Made by a program: the position numbers and the translations under genes. Under the pieces are notes generated by a model, which saw only the letters and a list, made by a program, of their open reading frames with translations, was not told the origin of the DNA and ran no database searches. Positions 2,964 through 39,067 of a DNA stretch of 64,000 bases are shown here, in pieces. Every line of letters begins with the position of its first letter. Positions within the stretch are counted from its first letter, which is position 1. Source of the stretch: Flammeovirga kamogawensis (GTDB lineage Bacteria > Bacteroidota > Bacteroidia > Cytophagales > Flammeovirgaceae); assembly GCF_018736065.1 (NCBI RefSeq), contig NZ_CP076128.1, positions 3,201,501-3,265,500 of the forward strand, given 5' to 3'.

Positions 2964-5900
2964 TTGGCAACATTCAAGAACGGTAGAAAGAATTTTGCAT
3001 CAGCAAAAAGAGTATTGGGTTACCCAGACTTCTTAGATGTACAATTTAAGTCTTTCCACAATTTCTTTCAAATCGACACTCCACCTGAATTCCGTGAAGA
3101 CGAAGGTCTTTATAAGGTATTCATGGAGAACTTCCCTATTACAGATTCTCGTGAGAACTTTAATTTGGAATTTATTGATTATACAATTGACCCTCCTAAA
3201 TACACTGTAGATGAGTGTGTAGAGAGAGGCTTGACTTTTAGTGTACCTTTAAAAGCAAAATTAAAGCTTTCTTGTAGCGACGAAGATAATGAAGACTTTG
3301 AAACCATCGAACAAGATGTGTTCTTAGGAAACATTCCTTATATGACTACTCGTGGTTCGTTTGTAGTAAATGGTGCAGAACGTGTTATTGTATCTCAATT
3401 ACACAGATCGCCAGGTGTTTTCTTTGCACAATCAAAGCACACGAACGGTACTAAACTTTACTCTGCAAGAGTAATTCCTTTTAAAGGATCATGGATCGAA
3501 TTTGCAACTGACGTTAATAACGTAATGTATGCATATATCGACCGTAAGAAAAAATTCCCTGTTACGATGCTTCTTCGTTCGATCGGTTATGGATCGGATA
3601 AAGACATTTTAGATTTATTCGGTTTATCTGAAGAAATCAAAGTTGATAAGAAGAATCTTAAAAACTTATCTAACCGTACACTTGCTGCACGTGTATTAAA
3701 AACATGGACAGAAGACTTCGTTGATGAAGATACTGGTGAGGTAGTTTCTATTGATCGTAACGATGTAATCTTAGAGCGTGATCATATCATCTCTGAAGAA
3801 GATCTTGAATTGATCGAAGATGCAGGCGTAAGCTCTGTAATCGTTCATAGAAAAGATATTAACATCAACGATTTCCGTATCATCTTTGATACGTTATCTA
3901 AAGATAATTCAAACTCAGAAAAAGAAGCGGTACATCAAATTTACCGTCAACTTCGTAATACTGAGGCTCCTGATGATCAGACTGCGCGTGATATTATCAA
4001 TAACTTGTTCTTCTCTGACAAACGTTACGATTTAGGTGAAGTAGGTAGATACAAACTTAACCGTAAGTTACAGTCGGAAACAAGCATGGATATCCGTGTG
4101 CTGACTAAAGAAGATATTGTCAAAATCATCAAACACTTGATCCACTTGATCAACTCTAAAACAGTAGTTGATGATATTGACCACTTGTCAAACCGTCGTA
4201 TCCGTACGGTGGGTGAGCAACTTTACTCTCAATTTGGAGTAGGTTTAGCTCGTATGGCACGTACAATTAAAGAACGTATGAACGTACGTGATAACGAAGA
4301 CTTCAAACCAGTTGATTTGGTGAATGCTCGTACGTTATCATCTGTGATTAACTCGTTCTTCGGTACAAACCAGCTTTCTCAATTCATGGACCAAACTAAC
4401 CCTCTTGCAGAGGTAACGCACAAGCGTCGTATCTCAGCATTAGGACCAGGTGGTTTATCAAGAGAGCGTGCAGGTTTCGAGGTTCGTGACGTTCACTATA
4501 CACACTACGGTCGTCTTTGTACTATTGAGACACCGGAAGGGCCAAACATTGGTCTTATTTCATCTCTTACTGTTTATGCAAAAGTAAACAGCATGGGATT
4601 CATCGAAACTCCTTATCGTAAAGTTACAGATGGTGTTGTTGACATTGATGACAACAACGTTACATACATCTCTGCTGAAGAAGAGGATGATAAGTTTATC
4701 GCACAAGCGAAAACAGATCTAGATGATAACAACCGTTTCACAGAGGAGTTTGTAAAAGTTCGTTATGAGGGTGACTTCCCGCTTAAAGCGCCAGAAGATA
4801 TCCAATATATGGACGTTGCTCCTAACCAAATTGTATCTATTGCAGCATCTCTAATTCCTTTCTTGGAGCATGATGATGCCAACCGTGCATTGATGGGATC
4901 AAACATGCAGCGTCAAGCTGTGCCGTTATTGAAACCTGAGGCACCAATTGTAGGTACTGGTCTTGAAAGAAACGTAGCTATTGATTCTCGTACTGTTGTT
5001 CTTGCTGAGAAAGACGGTGTTGTAGATACAGTAGATGCCAACTCTATCAACATGAGATATGACCACACTGAAGATCAAAGACTAGCTAGTTTTGAGAATG
5101 AAGTGAAGTCACATTCATTAGTGAAGTTCCGTAGAACGAACCAAGATACTTGTATGAACATGCGTCCTATCGTTAAGAAAGGACAACGTGTGAAAAAAGG
5201 TGATGTTCTTTCTGAAGGTTACTCTACTGAAAATGGTGAGTTAGCAATCGGTAAAAACTTGCTTGTAGCATTTATGCCTTGGCAAGGATATAACTTTGAG
5301 GATGCGATTGTAATCTCTGAGCGTGTAGTGCGTAATGATGTTTATACTTCGCTTCACATTGTTGAATATGAATTGGAAGTGCGTGACACTAAACGTGGAG
5401 AAGAAGAATTAACTTCTGAAATTCCTAACGTTGGTGAAGATGCAGTTAAAAACCTTGACGAAAACGGTATTATCCGTGTAGGATCTCGTGTTCGCCCTGG
5501 TGATATATTAATTGGTAAGATTACTCCTAAAGGAGAGTCTGATCCAACTCCAGAAGAAAAATTATTACGTGCAATCTTTGGTGACAAAGCTGGTGACGTA
5601 AAAGATGCTTCTTTAAAAGCATCGCCATCATTAATCGGTACTGTTATCGATACACGTTTATTTGCTCGTCCTAAAAAGGATAAAGATTTACGTGCTAAGG
5701 CTAAGAAAGAAGTTGAGTTATTGAAAAAACAATACTCACGCGACTTGAAAGGTCTTGAGAACAAAATGATGACGAAGTTGATTGAATTATTAGACGGTAT
5801 GACTTGTGAAGGTGTACGTCATAAATTTGGTCAAGAAGTAATCAGTAAAGGTGTAGTTTTCAACGAAGCTAATATCGCTGAAAATATCTTCTCTGGTGAT

Positions 5901-6836
5901 AACCCATTCCGTGATGATTCTAGCTATGCAGTAGCTGAGGAAGTAAACCTTATCGGTGACCTTATCTTAGATAACTGGACAGAAGATGTTCGCGTTAATG
6001 AGTTAGTACGTGATACTGTAAAGAATTATATCAATGCTCGTAACGAGGTAACTGGTTACTTTAAGCGTGATAGATTTACATTAGAAGTAGGTGACGAATT
6101 ACCAACAGGTATCGTAAAACTTGCTAAAGTTTACATCGCTAAGCGTCGTAAATTGAAAGTAGGTGATAAGATGGCCGGTCGTCACGGTAACAAGGGTGTT
6201 GTTGCTAAGATTGTTCCTGAAGAGGATATGCCATACTTAGAAGATGGTACTCCAATGGATATCTGTCTTAACCCTCTTGGTGTACCTTCACGTATGAACA
6301 TCGGTCAAATCTATGAAACTGTTCTAGGTTGGGCTGGTTTAAAAATGGGTAGAAAGTATGCTACTCCTATTTTCGATGGTGCTTCTGAAGAAGAAGTAAT
6401 CGCAGAATTGAAGGAAGCAGGTTTACCAGACTTCGGTCGTGCTCAATTATATGATGGTTTAACAGGTGATCCATTCCACCAGAGAGTTTCTGTTGGTGTA
6501 ATGTATATGCTGAAACTTGGTCACTTAGTTGATGATAAGATGCACGCTCGTTCAATTGGACCTTACTCACTTATTACTCAACAACCGTTGGGTGGTAAAG
6601 CACAGTTTGGTGGTCAGCGTTTCGGTGAGATGGAAGTGTGGGCATTAGAGGCATTTGGTGCTGCTAATGTACTTCGTGAAATCTTAACAGTTAAGTCTGA
6701 TGATGTTCAAGGACGTGCGAAAGCTTATGAAGCGATCGTTAAGGGCGATAACATGCCTAATCCAAATGTTCCAGAATCATTCAATGTACTTGTGCACGAA
6801 CTTCGTGGTCTTGCACTAGAGATTACATTGAAATAA
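2964..6836 (+). CDS. rpoB: DNA-directed RNA polymerase beta subunit
   Basis: A 1290-residue beta subunit, normal length for Bacteroidota. It catalyses RNA synthesis with RpoC, RpoA, RpoZ and sigma. The rifampicin-binding region (about residues 465-535, with [20 protein letters not shown]) keeps the wild-type residues at the positions equal to E. coli Q513, D516, H526 and S531. The invariant [12 protein letters not shown] lies near residue 1070. Translation starts at TTG 2964: no ATG or GTG exists between the upstream in-frame stop at 2940 and the conserved N-terminus. rplL is not upstream and rpoC is not downstream; TlpA and a DUF5606 gene flank it instead. A strong terminator follows within 45 nt, so it is transcribed separately from rpoC. 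Confidence 0.98.
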
Positions 6837-11174: not shown

Positions 11175-11876
11175 ATGAATTTAGATCAATCTCAGATTAT
11201 CTATGAAGACAATCATTTAGTGGTTGTGAATAAAGCTCCTGGTATATTGGTTCAGGGTGATGAGACAGGTGATGAAACATTAACTGACATCGTGAAACAA
11301 TATGTAAAGGAAAAATATAATAAACCTGGAGCTGTATTTTTAGCTCCTGTACATAGATTAGACCGTCCTGTTAGTGGAGTTGTTGTGTTTGCAAGAACAT
11401 CTAAAGCTGCTGAAAGAATGGCTAAAATATTTCATGATCATAAGATTACTAAAACTTATATGGCTTTAGTAGAAAAGCGTCCGCAAAAAGATGCTGATAC
11501 TTTGATTAATTGGATGAAAAAAGACGATAAAAAGAACCGTTCTCATGTTTATCAATCCGAAAAGAAAGGGGGTAAATATGTAGAAACTCATTATCAGGTT
11601 CTTGGTAGAGTTGGTGATAATTACTGTTTAGAGGTAACACCTAAAACAGGTCGTTCACATCAGATTCGTGCACAATTAGGTAATATTGCAGCACCTATTA
11701 AAGGTGATATGAAATATGGTAGTAAGAAACAGATTTTAAAAGGTAAAATGATTTTCTTACATGCTAGACAATTACAATTTGAGCATCCTGTAAAGAAAGA
11801 GCCAATGCGATTTACTGCAAGGTTACCTGAACATGATATTTGGAAAAATTTCACTGAAATGTCTTCTACTATTTAG
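11175..11876 (+). CDS. RluA-family pseudouridine synthase
   Basis: A 233-residue RNA pseudouridine synthase. The catalytic Asp is D63 in VHRLDRPVSGVVVFART (residues 59-75), the family motif HRLDxxxSG. The N-terminus (IIYEDNHLVVVNKAPGILVQ) and the C-terminal KTGRSHQIRAQL element are also standard. There is no S4 domain, so this is the short RluA/RluC-catalytic-only type. Its target (23S rRNA or tRNA position) cannot be told from sequence. It is likely co-transcribed with panB and is followed by a terminator. Confidence 0.9.
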   Translation: MNLDQSQIIYEDNHLVVVNKAPGILVQGDETGDETLTDIVKQYVKEKYNKPGAVFLAPVHRLDRPVSGVVVFARTSKAAERMAKIFHDHKITKTYMALVEKRPQKDADTLINWMKKDDKKNRSHVYQSEKKGGKYVETHYQVLGRVGDNYCLEVTPKTGRSHQIRAQLGNIAAPIKGDMKYGSKKQILKGKMIFLHARQLQFEHPVKKEPMRFTARLPEHDIWKNFTEMSSTI

Positions 11877-11901
11877 TAGATAGAATACTTAAGATATCAA
11901 C

Positions 11902-11943
11902 AATCCCTATCGTCTTTTATTGATGATAGGGATTTTATTTTTT
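11902..11943 (+). terminator. Intrinsic terminator after the pseudouridine synthase gene
   Basis: Stem AATCCCTATCGTC (11902-11914) with GATGATAGGGATT (11922-11934), one G-U pair, followed by TTATTTTTTTT. Confidence 0.85.
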
Positions 11944-11960
11944 TTAATCTTAATAATTAA

Positions 11961-12125
11961 AAAGTTATCAACAGTATTGCTGTGAATAACTTTGTTCCAC
12001 GTGGAATAATGATTAAAAATTGAATAATTTCAATACCAATGTTGATAACTATTGAAAACGATCATTGTATTTTGACTTATTAGATGAATAAAAGTTATCA
12101 ACAACTTATTTTGTGTTGATAACCT
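11961..12125. other. Cluster of DnaA-box-like sites around a parS-like palindrome (candidate origin-type region)
   Basis: In about 165 AT-rich bases between convergent genes there are four TTATCAACA nonamers (11965-11973 and 12095-12103 on plus; 12040-12048 and 12114-12122 on minus) and one TTATTCACA (11981-11989, minus), which fits the E. coli DnaA box TTATnCACA exactly. Two more TTATCAACA copies lie in the adjacent cobC (12236-12244 plus, 12439-12447 minus). The parS-like palindrome sits at 11993-12008. TTATCAACA also occurs singly elsewhere in the window, but the few others I noticed are kilobases apart. Against an origin: genes on both sides point into this region, including rpoB. The pair at 12094-12123 is also an inverted repeat that could serve as a cobC terminator. 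Function is inferred. Confidence 0.45.
11993..12008. promoter_or_regulatory. parS-like ParB-binding palindrome
   Basis: TGTTCCACGTGGAATA contains a perfect 12-bp palindrome (TTCCACGTGGAA, 11995-12006) and matches the widespread chromosomal parS form TGTTCCACGTGGAACA at 14 of 16 positions. parS sites bind ParB and normally lie near the replication origin. Confidence 0.5.
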
Positions 12126-12633
12126 TTACAACTTCTCCATAATCAACTTTTAAATTGAATATTTTCTCTAATGGATATTTGTTAAAATGTTGATGAAAAA
12201 TGCGTAAAACAGTAGCGTGAGTGATGATTATTACTTTATCAACATCATGTTTTATAAGATCTTCAATAAAATTAATAACTCTTTTGTGTATATCTTTTAA
12301 TGCTTCTCCATTTGGTGGTTTTTGATTCACAAAATCATTTCCCCACTTATCTAATTGATTTCTAGGTATATCATTCCAAGCTATTAATTCCCAATCACCA
12401 AAATTACATTCAAGAAGACGATTATCTGTTGAATACTGTGTTGATAACTTTTCAGCTAGTAACATACATCTACTTAATGGAGATGAGAAGATGATATCAA
12501 CATCTGTTGGTAACTTGGTAATTACTTGAGTAATATCATCTTCAAAAGTATGAGCTAATGCAACGTCACTTTGCCCATAACAGATTCCTTTTTCGACAGC
12601 AACTTGTGTATGACGTACTATATAAATTTCCAT
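12106..12633 (-). CDS. cobC: Alpha-ribazole phosphatase, histidine phosphatase family
   Basis: A 175-residue histidine-phosphatase-superfamily enzyme. The RHG-type motif is VRHTQ (R7, H8), with later FSSPLSRC, the acidic LLECNFGDWE and the second His in IIITHATVLR. CobC removes the 5'-phosphate from alpha-ribazole phosphate, or from cobalamin phosphate, in the last steps of vitamin B12 nucleotide-loop assembly. Operon context decides the call over other phosphatases of this fold: its start overlaps the end of cobS by 16 nt, and cobT precedes cobS. The 3' end overlaps one of the TTATCAACA-type sites. Confidence 0.85.
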   Translation of the reverse strand: MEIYIVRHTQVAVEKGICYGQSDVALAHTFEDDITQVITKLPTDVDIIFSSPLSRCMLLAEKLSTQYSTDNRLLECNFGDWELIAWNDIPRNQLDKWGNDFVNQKPPNGEALKDIHKRVINFIEDLIKHDVDKVIIITHATVLRIFHQHFNKYPLEKIFNLKVDYGEVVKVINTK

Positions 12634-13391
12634 ACAATACTTAAAAGAAGATAAATAAAAACCTCAGTTAATTGTTGAGTTGCTCCAAGACAATCACCAG
12701 TGTACCCTCCTATTTTCTTTTTAAAATAATGACCTAAATAGCCTGTAAAAATTAATACTATAGGAATGATGACTACTAATACTATTTGTTGATAAAGAAA
12801 AAAAGGAAGGATTGCTATTGTTCCTCCAAATAGAATTGGTAAGCTGCTAAATTTTGTAATTGCAATTGGCTTTGATTTACTCTTATCTATATCTTGAACA
12901 TAGGGTAAAAAATCTACTAAAAGAGAAGCCATAAACCTACTTAATGTATGTGCAGTAATAATACTGATCAGTAGATAATTAGTATCAATTGTTTGAAGAC
13001 TAACTAATAGTTTGAATTTTAACCCTAAAATAATTATTAGAGATACAGTGCCATATGTACCAATACGGCTATCCTTCATAATTGTAAGAATTTTTTCTTT
13101 TGTATATCCCCCGCCAAAAGCATCAAAGGTATCGGCTAAACCATCTTCATGAAAAGCACCTGTTATCCAAATACTCAAAATCATTGAAAAAATTATTGAA
13201 ATTTCTGGATTTAAAAATTGCCTTAAACCTTGATATGCACATATAGAAATAAATCCAACAATTAAACCAATTACAGGGAAATATTTTCTTGATTTTTGTA
13301 AGTATTCTTGATCAAAAGGTACCCAACTTGGTATAGGTATTCTAGTGAAAAATTGTAGTGCAGTAAAGAATAAGTAGAGTTCTTTTTTCAT
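12618..13391 (-). CDS. cobS: Adenosylcobinamide-GDP ribazoletransferase (cobalamin synthase)
   Basis: A 257-residue polytopic membrane enzyme joining adenosylcobinamide-GDP to alpha-ribazole (or its phosphate) to make adenosylcobalamin (phosphate). The metal-binding family motif is HEDGLADTFDAFGGG near residues 80-95, with five to six hydrophobic segments and a GGYTGDCLGATQQLTE signature near the C-terminus. Its first base overlaps the last base of cobT and its 3' end overlaps cobC, so translation of the three is coupled. Confidence 0.95.
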   Translation of the reverse strand: MKKELYLFFTALQFFTRIPIPSWVPFDQEYLQKSRKYFPVIGLIVGFISICAYQGLRQFLNPEISIIFSMILSIWITGAFHEDGLADTFDAFGGGYTKEKILTIMKDSRIGTYGTVSLIIILGLKFKLLVSLQTIDTNYLLISIITAHTLSRFMASLLVDFLPYVQDIDKSKSKPIAITKFSSLPILFGGTIAILPFFLYQQIVLVVIIPIVLIFTGYLGHYFKKKIGGYTGDCLGATQQLTEVFIYLLLSIVWKFI

Positions 13392-38502: not shown

Positions 38503-38575
38503 GCGAAAATAGCTCAGCTGGTAGAGCGCAACCTTGCCAAGGTTGAGGTCGCGGGTTCGAACCCCGTTTTTCGCT
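38503..38575 (+). tRNA. tRNA-Gly (GCC), copy 1
   Basis: A 73-nt cloverleaf: acceptor GCGAAAA with TTTTCGC, D-arm AGCTCAGCTGGTAGAGC, anticodon loop TTGCCAA, T-arm GCGGGTTCGAACCCCG. CCA is not encoded. Identical in sequence to copies 2 and 3. Confidence 0.97.
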
Positions 38576-38612
38576 CAATTAAAAAGATTCATTCGTCACT
38601 TGTGATGAATGG

Positions 38613-38696
38613 GCCGGAATGGCGGAACTGGTAGACGCGCAAGACTTAAAATCTTGTGAGGGTAACCTCGTGTGGGTTCGATTCCCACTTCTGGTA
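38613..38696 (+). tRNA. tRNA-Leu (TAA), copy 1
   Basis: 84 nt with a long variable arm (GTGAGGGTAACCTCGT), anticodon loop CTTAAAA, T-arm GTGGGTTCGATTCCCAC; acceptor GCCGGAA pairs with TTCTGGT with two G-U pairs. CCA is not encoded. Confidence 0.96.
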
Positions 38697-38702
38697 CAAA
38701 TT

Positions 38703-38775
38703 GCGAAAATAGCTCAGCTGGTAGAGCGCAACCTTGCCAAGGTTGAGGTCGCGGGTTCGAACCCCGTTTTTCGCT
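38703..38775 (+). tRNA. tRNA-Gly (GCC), copy 2
   Basis: Same 73-nt sequence as copy 1. Followed by a small hairpin (TACTAAA 38781-38787 with TTTAGTA 38792-38798) and a longer 126-nt spacer. Confidence 0.97.
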
Positions 38776-38901
38776 CGGAGTACTAAAGTGATTTAGTAAT
38801 TTGAATTGGAGAGACATCTTCAACACAGTAATGTGAAACATCAGTATCAGTTATGATGAATATGTAAAGATTTTAATTCATTTGTCACTTGTGATAGATG
38901 A

Positions 38902-38985
38902 GCCGGAATGGCGGAACTGGTAGACGCGCAAGACTTAAAATCTTGTGAGGGTAACCTCGTGTGGGTTCGATTCCCACTTCTGGTA
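38902..38985 (+). tRNA. tRNA-Leu (TAA), copy 2
   Basis: Same 84-nt sequence as copy 1. The 30 bases before it (TTCATTTGTCACTTGTGATA...) resemble those before copy 1, marking a duplication. Confidence 0.96.
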
Positions 38986-38991
38986 CGAATC

Positions 38992-39064
38992 GCGAAAATA
39001 GCTCAGCTGGTAGAGCGCAACCTTGCCAAGGTTGAGGTCGCGGGTTCGAACCCCGTTTTTCGCT
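38992..39064 (+). tRNA. tRNA-Gly (GCC), copy 3
   Basis: Same 73-nt sequence as copies 1 and 2, 6 nt after tRNA-Leu copy 2 and 3 nt before the terminator stem. Confidence 0.97.
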
Positions 39065-39067
39065 CTA

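Follow-up and report, generated by a model that had tools for sequence, protein, structure and literature searches.

A likely satellite cluster of DnaA-type boxes with a parS-like palindrome behind rluD in Flammeovirga kamogawensis

What is a parS-like palindrome doing among DnaA-box-like sites next to rluD on the main chromosome of the marine bacterium Flammeovirga kamogawensis? The locus lies in a stretch of 64,000 nucleotides (the window; positions 3201501-3265500 of C1, the main chromosome contig of 4,667,875 bp), and a first-pass annotation had considered it to be an origin of replication, a ParB site away from the origin, or the operator cluster of a regulator. The idea came from the F. 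kamogawensis genome (G000; 6.97 Mb, 4 contigs) and was tested on the remaining genomes. The nine Flammeovirga genomes used (G000-G008) are mutually related; G002 is near G000 (89% in the stretch of the rluD cluster), and G001, G004, G005 and G006 are near one another (68-84%). Genomes from other genera (G009, G010, G011 and G012) were used for comparison. According to PMC8653839, Flammeovirga possesses a second chromosome with its own RepA; in G000, one Rep_3 initiator is encoded on each of the contigs C2, C3 and C4.

Boxes and palindrome between rluD and cobC

The cluster adjoins the 3' end of an rluD-like pseudouridine synthase gene (11175..11876, plus strand; PF00849 in Pfam), an ortholog of which was found at 83-98% identity in 8/8 other Flammeovirga genomes (9/9 with G000). 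A terminator-like hairpin (11902..11934, plus strand) follows the gene immediately ahead of the boxes; it is the sole terminator-like site in 11800-12300, and its fold z-scores are -5.4 and -6.8 for two overlapping stretches. Four DnaA-type boxes TTATCAACA are located at 11965..11973 (+), 12040..12048 (-), 12095..12103 (+) and 12114..12122 (-), with strands alternating over 165 bp, and a fifth box, TTATTCACA, which matches TTATNCACA, is found at 11981..11989 (-). The parS-like palindrome TGTTCCACGTGGAATA occupies 11993..12008. The box at 12114 overlaps the end of a cobC-like histidine phosphatase gene (12106..12633, minus strand; PF00300 in Pfam), which is convergent with rluD and separated from it by a gap of 76% AT; two more TTATCAACA boxes lie within cobC at 12236..12244 (+) and 12439..12447 (-). 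The palindrome and all seven boxes are unchanged in G002. A further TTATCAACA within cobS (12787..12795, minus strand) is probably incidental and has no counterpart among the TTATCAACA listed for G002. The first-pass annotation had thus described the boxes of the 165 bp correctly, together with additional copies beyond them and with the nearby rpoB gene (2964-6836, plus strand).

The window contains 14 copies of TTATCAACA, as compared to a mean of 1.62 in shuffled sequences (largest 5; 14 was reached in 0/100 shuffles). Seven of the 14 fall in 11965-12795 and the remainder occur about once per 9 kb, which agrees with the scarcity noted earlier. For TTATNCACA, two matches were found in the window, one of them inside the cluster, a total below chance (mean 4.48). 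The annotation had proposed counting both motifs over the genome: TTATCAACA has 398 copies versus 175 of a control word (2.3 times commoner), a point against reading it as a DnaA site, and the palindrome proved to be unique, TGTTCCACGTGGAATA being the sole place in 6.97 Mb with <=1 mismatch to the parS consensus. Other TTATCAACA clusters on C1 are at least those among the matches listed (100 of 398).

The parS consensus TGTTCCACGTGGAACA was taken from the first-pass annotation. The palindrome agrees with it at 15 of 16 positions; its presence had been recognized correctly, and its score of 14/16 was wrong. At <=1 mismatch, 0.03 sites are expected genome-wide by an independent-base estimate. 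Matches with <=3 mismatches numbered 20 as compared to 30 per strand for a reversed-pattern control, a lack of excess which is uninformative alone. The 12-bp core TTCCACGTGGAA occurs exactly in G000 two times (control word, one) and over 38 genomes 47 times (control word, six). A single ParB was found (TIGR00180 model), encoded beside ParA at C1:4184181. Being a near match to a 16-bp palindrome, rare in the genome and located near the origin, about 82 kb from the main group of parS-like sites upstream of mnmG, the palindrome is supported as a prediction to be a likely ParB site away from the origin, as the annotation had offered as one of its options.

Alternatively, the DnaA-box cluster could be real and the palindrome a chance match without ParB function. 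We regard this as the less probable case, yet one that has to be reckoned with: the site is present at the rluD locus only in G000 and G002 (2/9 genomes, close relatives), the remaining seven Flammeovirga genomes have no parS-like site with <=3 mismatches up to about 1.5 kb from rluD, and the 12-bp core also occurs elsewhere without TTATCAACA. Against chance stand the low expectation and the position of the only such site, which lies inside a box cluster, no more than 82 kb away from the main parS group. Furthermore, the sequence is identical in the sister species, although 0/16 changed bases between G000 and G002 are, taken alone, weak evidence of conservation.

Extra intergenic copies of TTCCACGTGGAA were observed in G001, G004, G005 and G006 (L104:16780, L106:9572, L107:9911 and L109:10185), and their 14-bp core GTTCCACGTGGAAT (one strand) is identical to that of the palindrome in the window. 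Their membership in the element was not supported: no TTATCAACA is present in roughly 20 kb around each (TTATCAACA alone counted), and no relative of C2 RepA or of its iterons was found at these sites. On C2, a 14/16 parS-like site is located 4.7 kb from the Rep_3 rep gene (C2:1082335-1088954; L007, L259). Two other features of the window were recorded. A long open reading frame fit for rpoC is absent alongside rpoB, and the rpoBC pair is seemingly split, or this rpoB is a separate copy. Additionally, five tRNA genes with alternating Gly(gcc) and Leu(taa) at 38503-39065 apparently represent a tandem duplication.

Persistence of the cluster and a second cluster inside a gene

Boxes of the pattern TTATN[CA]ACA were counted in the 500 bp behind rluD. 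Every Flammeovirga genome carried several: nine in G003, eight in G007, seven each in G006 and G008, six each in G000, G002, G004 and G005, and four in G001. This is far above the background of 0.215 per kb, determined over 1.28 Mb excluding the window, the mnmG stretches and the rluD stretches. Among fixed 500-bp background windows, 3/2,553 reached >=4 boxes and none reached >=6; sliding windows contained six boxes at two places (G000, -133 kb; G003, +46.8 kb). An unbiased 9-mer count returned TTATTCACA (24 copies, 9/9 genomes) and TTATCCACA (nine copies, 5/9 genomes) among the most enriched words.

Types and positions of the boxes shift between species. TTATCAACA prevails in G000 and G002, TTATTCACA or TTATCCACA in most others, and DNA identity of the cluster stretch between species groups is 42-53%. 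The gene past the cluster is likewise variable: cobC is found in G000 and G002 only, and, with names read from sequence, a secreted repeat protein is encoded in G004, G005 and G006, an acyltransferase in G003 and G008, a flavin reductase in G007 and a membrane protein in G001. Apparently, the cluster is older than its neighbour genes: boxes turn over, the next gene is replaced and the cluster is retained. Outside the genus, TTATnnACA was found two times (G009) or not at all (G010, G011) in the 1,200 bp behind rluD. Between G000 and G002, 0/61 box and parS bases had changed as compared to 28/183 other bases (Fisher P 3e-4); by this comparison, the motif bases are shown to be under constraint.

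These results bear on the proposal that DnaA, or another regulator recognizing TTATnnACA, controls a neighbouring gene from an operator or promoter cluster. DnaA doubles as a transcription factor in other bacteria (PMC4447404), and in G001 and G007 the next gene is oriented away from the boxes and may be regulated from them. However, rluD and cobC converge and no gene starts in the gap, the neighbour is convergent with rluD in 7/9 genomes, and it is the neighbour that varies among species and the cluster that stays. Promoter-like matches show no excess either (3 versus 4.4 in shuffles). The operator suggested by the first-pass annotation is therefore disfavoured, and we consider it improbable.

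A second conserved cluster (C1:2997962-2999222) was found within the coding sequence of a Lamin-tail/Big_5 gene (C1:2997337-3002349; L020:12337-17349), 133 kb away from the mnmG parS group on its left side, opposite to rluD; in G007, the position of this gene is about 190 kb to the right. The gene is present in 8/8 other Flammeovirga genomes at 33-74% protein identity (best stretch), and its internal DnaA-box cluster in 9/9 (orthologs L260-L269). Boxes occupy matching alignment positions, one column in 9/9 genomes, two in 8/9 and one in 7/9. In the aligned core, V-D-[NK] is coded by GTTGAT in 28/28 cases (background 46/121) and V-N-[NK] by GTGAAT in 5/6 (background 22/133), and binomial P values overstate these differences since the core was picked for its boxes and the nine genomes share ancestry. 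Codon choice tracks the boxes, and therefore the word is still TTATCAACA or TTATTCACA at positions with a different residue. These data support selection on the DNA, with boxes that would act as DNA sites and have a role beyond promoters.

Two other readings of this intragenic cluster were rejected. It is unsuitable as oriC, being located in the Lamin-tail/Big_5 gene and in a stretch of negative skew, and it does not result from coding for D-V-D-N repeats, as the encoded peptides are not such repeats. Homologous loci outside Flammeovirga, of which the best-matching stretches alone were examined, contain 28 boxes in G010 and 17 in G012 (L273 and L278), on both strands and in several frames; a few are found in G009, and 0-2 in G011, G013, G014, G015, G016 and G017.

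The position of the origin

The origin was located by third-position GC skew in sampled stretches of C1. Between 0.82 and 3.10 Mb the skew is negative; from 3.105 Mb onward, across the contig end and up to 0.58 Mb, it is positive, with the exception of one slightly negative stretch at 3.16-3.18 Mb. Between ybeY and mnmG/gidA lie three parS-like sites with <=2 mismatches (C1:3131947-3132124; L021:9947-10124), and the sign changes to their left, at a distance of at most about 20 kb. parS-like sites were present upstream of mnmG in 12/12 genomes looked at (G000-G010 and G012); they form a group of three in 9/9 Flammeovirga, and three other genera have parS-like sites there, too. DnaA-type boxes are likewise dense on this side. 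In G000, G002 and G003 their density reaches 5-8 per 500 bp at a distance of 4-8 kb from the mnmG parS group; in G007 and G008 it is five per 500 bp at +5 kb. Downstream of mnmG, G000 carries 13 copies of TTATCAACA (L021:14304-19587; region C1:3.132-3.142 Mb), and TTATCAACA clusters beyond mnmG also occur in G009, G010 and G012. Because the skew switch, the parS-like sites and the box clusters are found there, we infer that oriC is located at about C1 3.11-3.14 Mb on the mnmG side. Since TTATCAACA is enriched at this origin and exchanges with TTATTCACA and TTATCCACA in the clusters, it may be taken as a DnaA box that would be bound by Flammeovirga DnaA.

The dnaA gene itself is found apart from this oriC, at C1 2.13 Mb (L216:1477-3498), and its product contains GGRDHSTVVHA. 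DnaA of G000 comprises 673 aa; its N-terminal and AAA+ parts are joined by a long linker rich in Q, N and P.

Is the rluD cluster nevertheless the chromosomal origin, or a second active or former one? Such a reading could invoke the dense boxes and the parS-like site in an AT-rich gap, and in G003, G007 and G008 no other box cluster of the sampled region is as dense as the one behind rluD. Moreover, skew is weak right of mnmG and about zero at +60 to +100 kb in G008 (-0.004, -0.033; +0.034 beyond), which makes this chromosome less clear-cut than the other four. Against it, in 5/5 chromosomes (G000, G002, G003, G007 and G008) skew is clearly negative left of the mnmG parS group, reaches about zero in the bin from -20 to 0 kb and becomes positive between 0 and +20 kb. 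To the right, it remains positive in every 20-kb bin in G000, G002, G003 and G007 with no step at the rluD cluster, so that a turn from negative to positive is not found there. The rluD cluster is located at +76 to +101 kb in these five chromosomes, 75-101 kb from the skew switch (less clearly in G008). In the six genomes with both on one contig, 75-112 kb separate it from the mnmG parS group; in G004, G005 and G006 the two are on different contigs. The mnmG side, with parS-like sites shared across genera, is the better candidate, and the origin proposed by the first-pass annotation is unlikely, slightly more so than the operator. Origin-finders should take note that in G003, G007 and G008 the densest sampled DnaA-box cluster is not located at the skew switch.

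A gene for a 438-aa protein with 4-6 internal DnaA-type boxes was observed at +65.8 kb (G002), +46.8 kb (G003) and +76.1 kb (G008) of the mnmG parS group. It sits behind a regulator-like gene of 449-450 aa, probably as a two-component pair, as judged by eye; the stretches sampled in G000 and G007 contain no ortholog.

In V. cholerae, the site crtS is not known to be replicated very early. That the rluD cluster is a crtS-like checkpoint on chromosome I timing the replication of chromosome II is very improbable: Flammeovirga has the second chromosome with its own RepA mentioned above, and a Rep_3 initiator is encoded at C2:1086996, but the cluster shares no binding sites with the chromosome II initiator (10 exact copies of the C2 iteron ATGTATAGATNTACC exist in the genome, all at C2:1085788-1088954 and none on C1), it has no more 11-mers in common with the C2 rep locus than control sequence does (4 versus a control mean of 5.3), and the cluster, unlike crtS, would replicate very early.

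A predicted control site beside the origin

The best fit is a DnaA-box cluster outside oriC, a reading absent from the first-pass annotation. We consider it likely that the locus behind rluD, on the right arm of chromosome I, represents a satellite DnaA-box cluster, and that the lineage of G000 and G002 also gained a likely ParB-loading site there. The cluster is probably a side-site that helps to control replication, and not the origin itself. DnaA would bind the seven boxes (11965-12447). Soon after initiation the fork would duplicate the cluster, free or active DnaA would be drawn from oriC, and re-initiation would be discouraged; alternatively, the cluster may act by a datA-like hydrolysis role. 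In G000 and G002, ParB would load at the parS-like site between the boxes and spread from it, and the main parS group would thereby be joined by an outlying ParB/SMC site. For DnaA binding, ParB binding, titration and SMC loading alike, we infer the step from sequence.

Clusters of DnaA boxes outside oriC exist in B. subtilis, and they are said to be oriC-proximal in the title of an article by Okumura from 2012. In Flammeovirga, which belongs to another phylum, the boxes are TTATCAACA and TTATTCACA, one cluster bears a parS-like site, and a second conserved one lies inside coding sequence. The clusters of B. subtilis are stated to titrate DnaA, and their position to matter (PMC5010248); the location of the rluD cluster behind a terminator-like hairpin between convergent genes fits this account. 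Removal of six such clusters leads to early initiation, strongly only if all are removed, according to a review in which their role is also called not significant (PMC5295017).

The same review describes datA of E. coli as a compact DnaA-box cluster away from oriC which acts negatively on initiation, requires IHF and promotes hydrolysis of DnaA-ATP (PMC5295017). The rluD cluster resembles datA as a compact cluster off oriC, a likeness of arrangement. With chromosomal parS sites the palindrome shares its 15/16 match to the consensus, its location near the inferred origin and the presence of a ParA-ParB pair on C1; it differs from them in its surroundings of DnaA-type boxes, in its distance of 82 kb to the main parS group and in its presence at this locus in 2/9 genomes. 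V. cholerae crtS is, likewise, a main-chromosome site in a two-chromosome bacterium (PMC13342612), but the rluD cluster lacks chromosome II iterons. No description of a DnaA-box cluster outside oriC in Bacteroidota was found in searches of open-licence papers.

Tentatively, a wider picture may be drawn in which DnaA sinks flank oriC, are partly written into coding sequence by codon choice, and were in one lineage fused to a ParB-loading site. If such a fusion is true, initiator titration and segregation of the origin region would be coupled at one locus. The rluD locus, the mnmG-side origin and the intragenic cluster provide short sequences for testing titration and its possible link to ParB in a two-chromosome bacterium.
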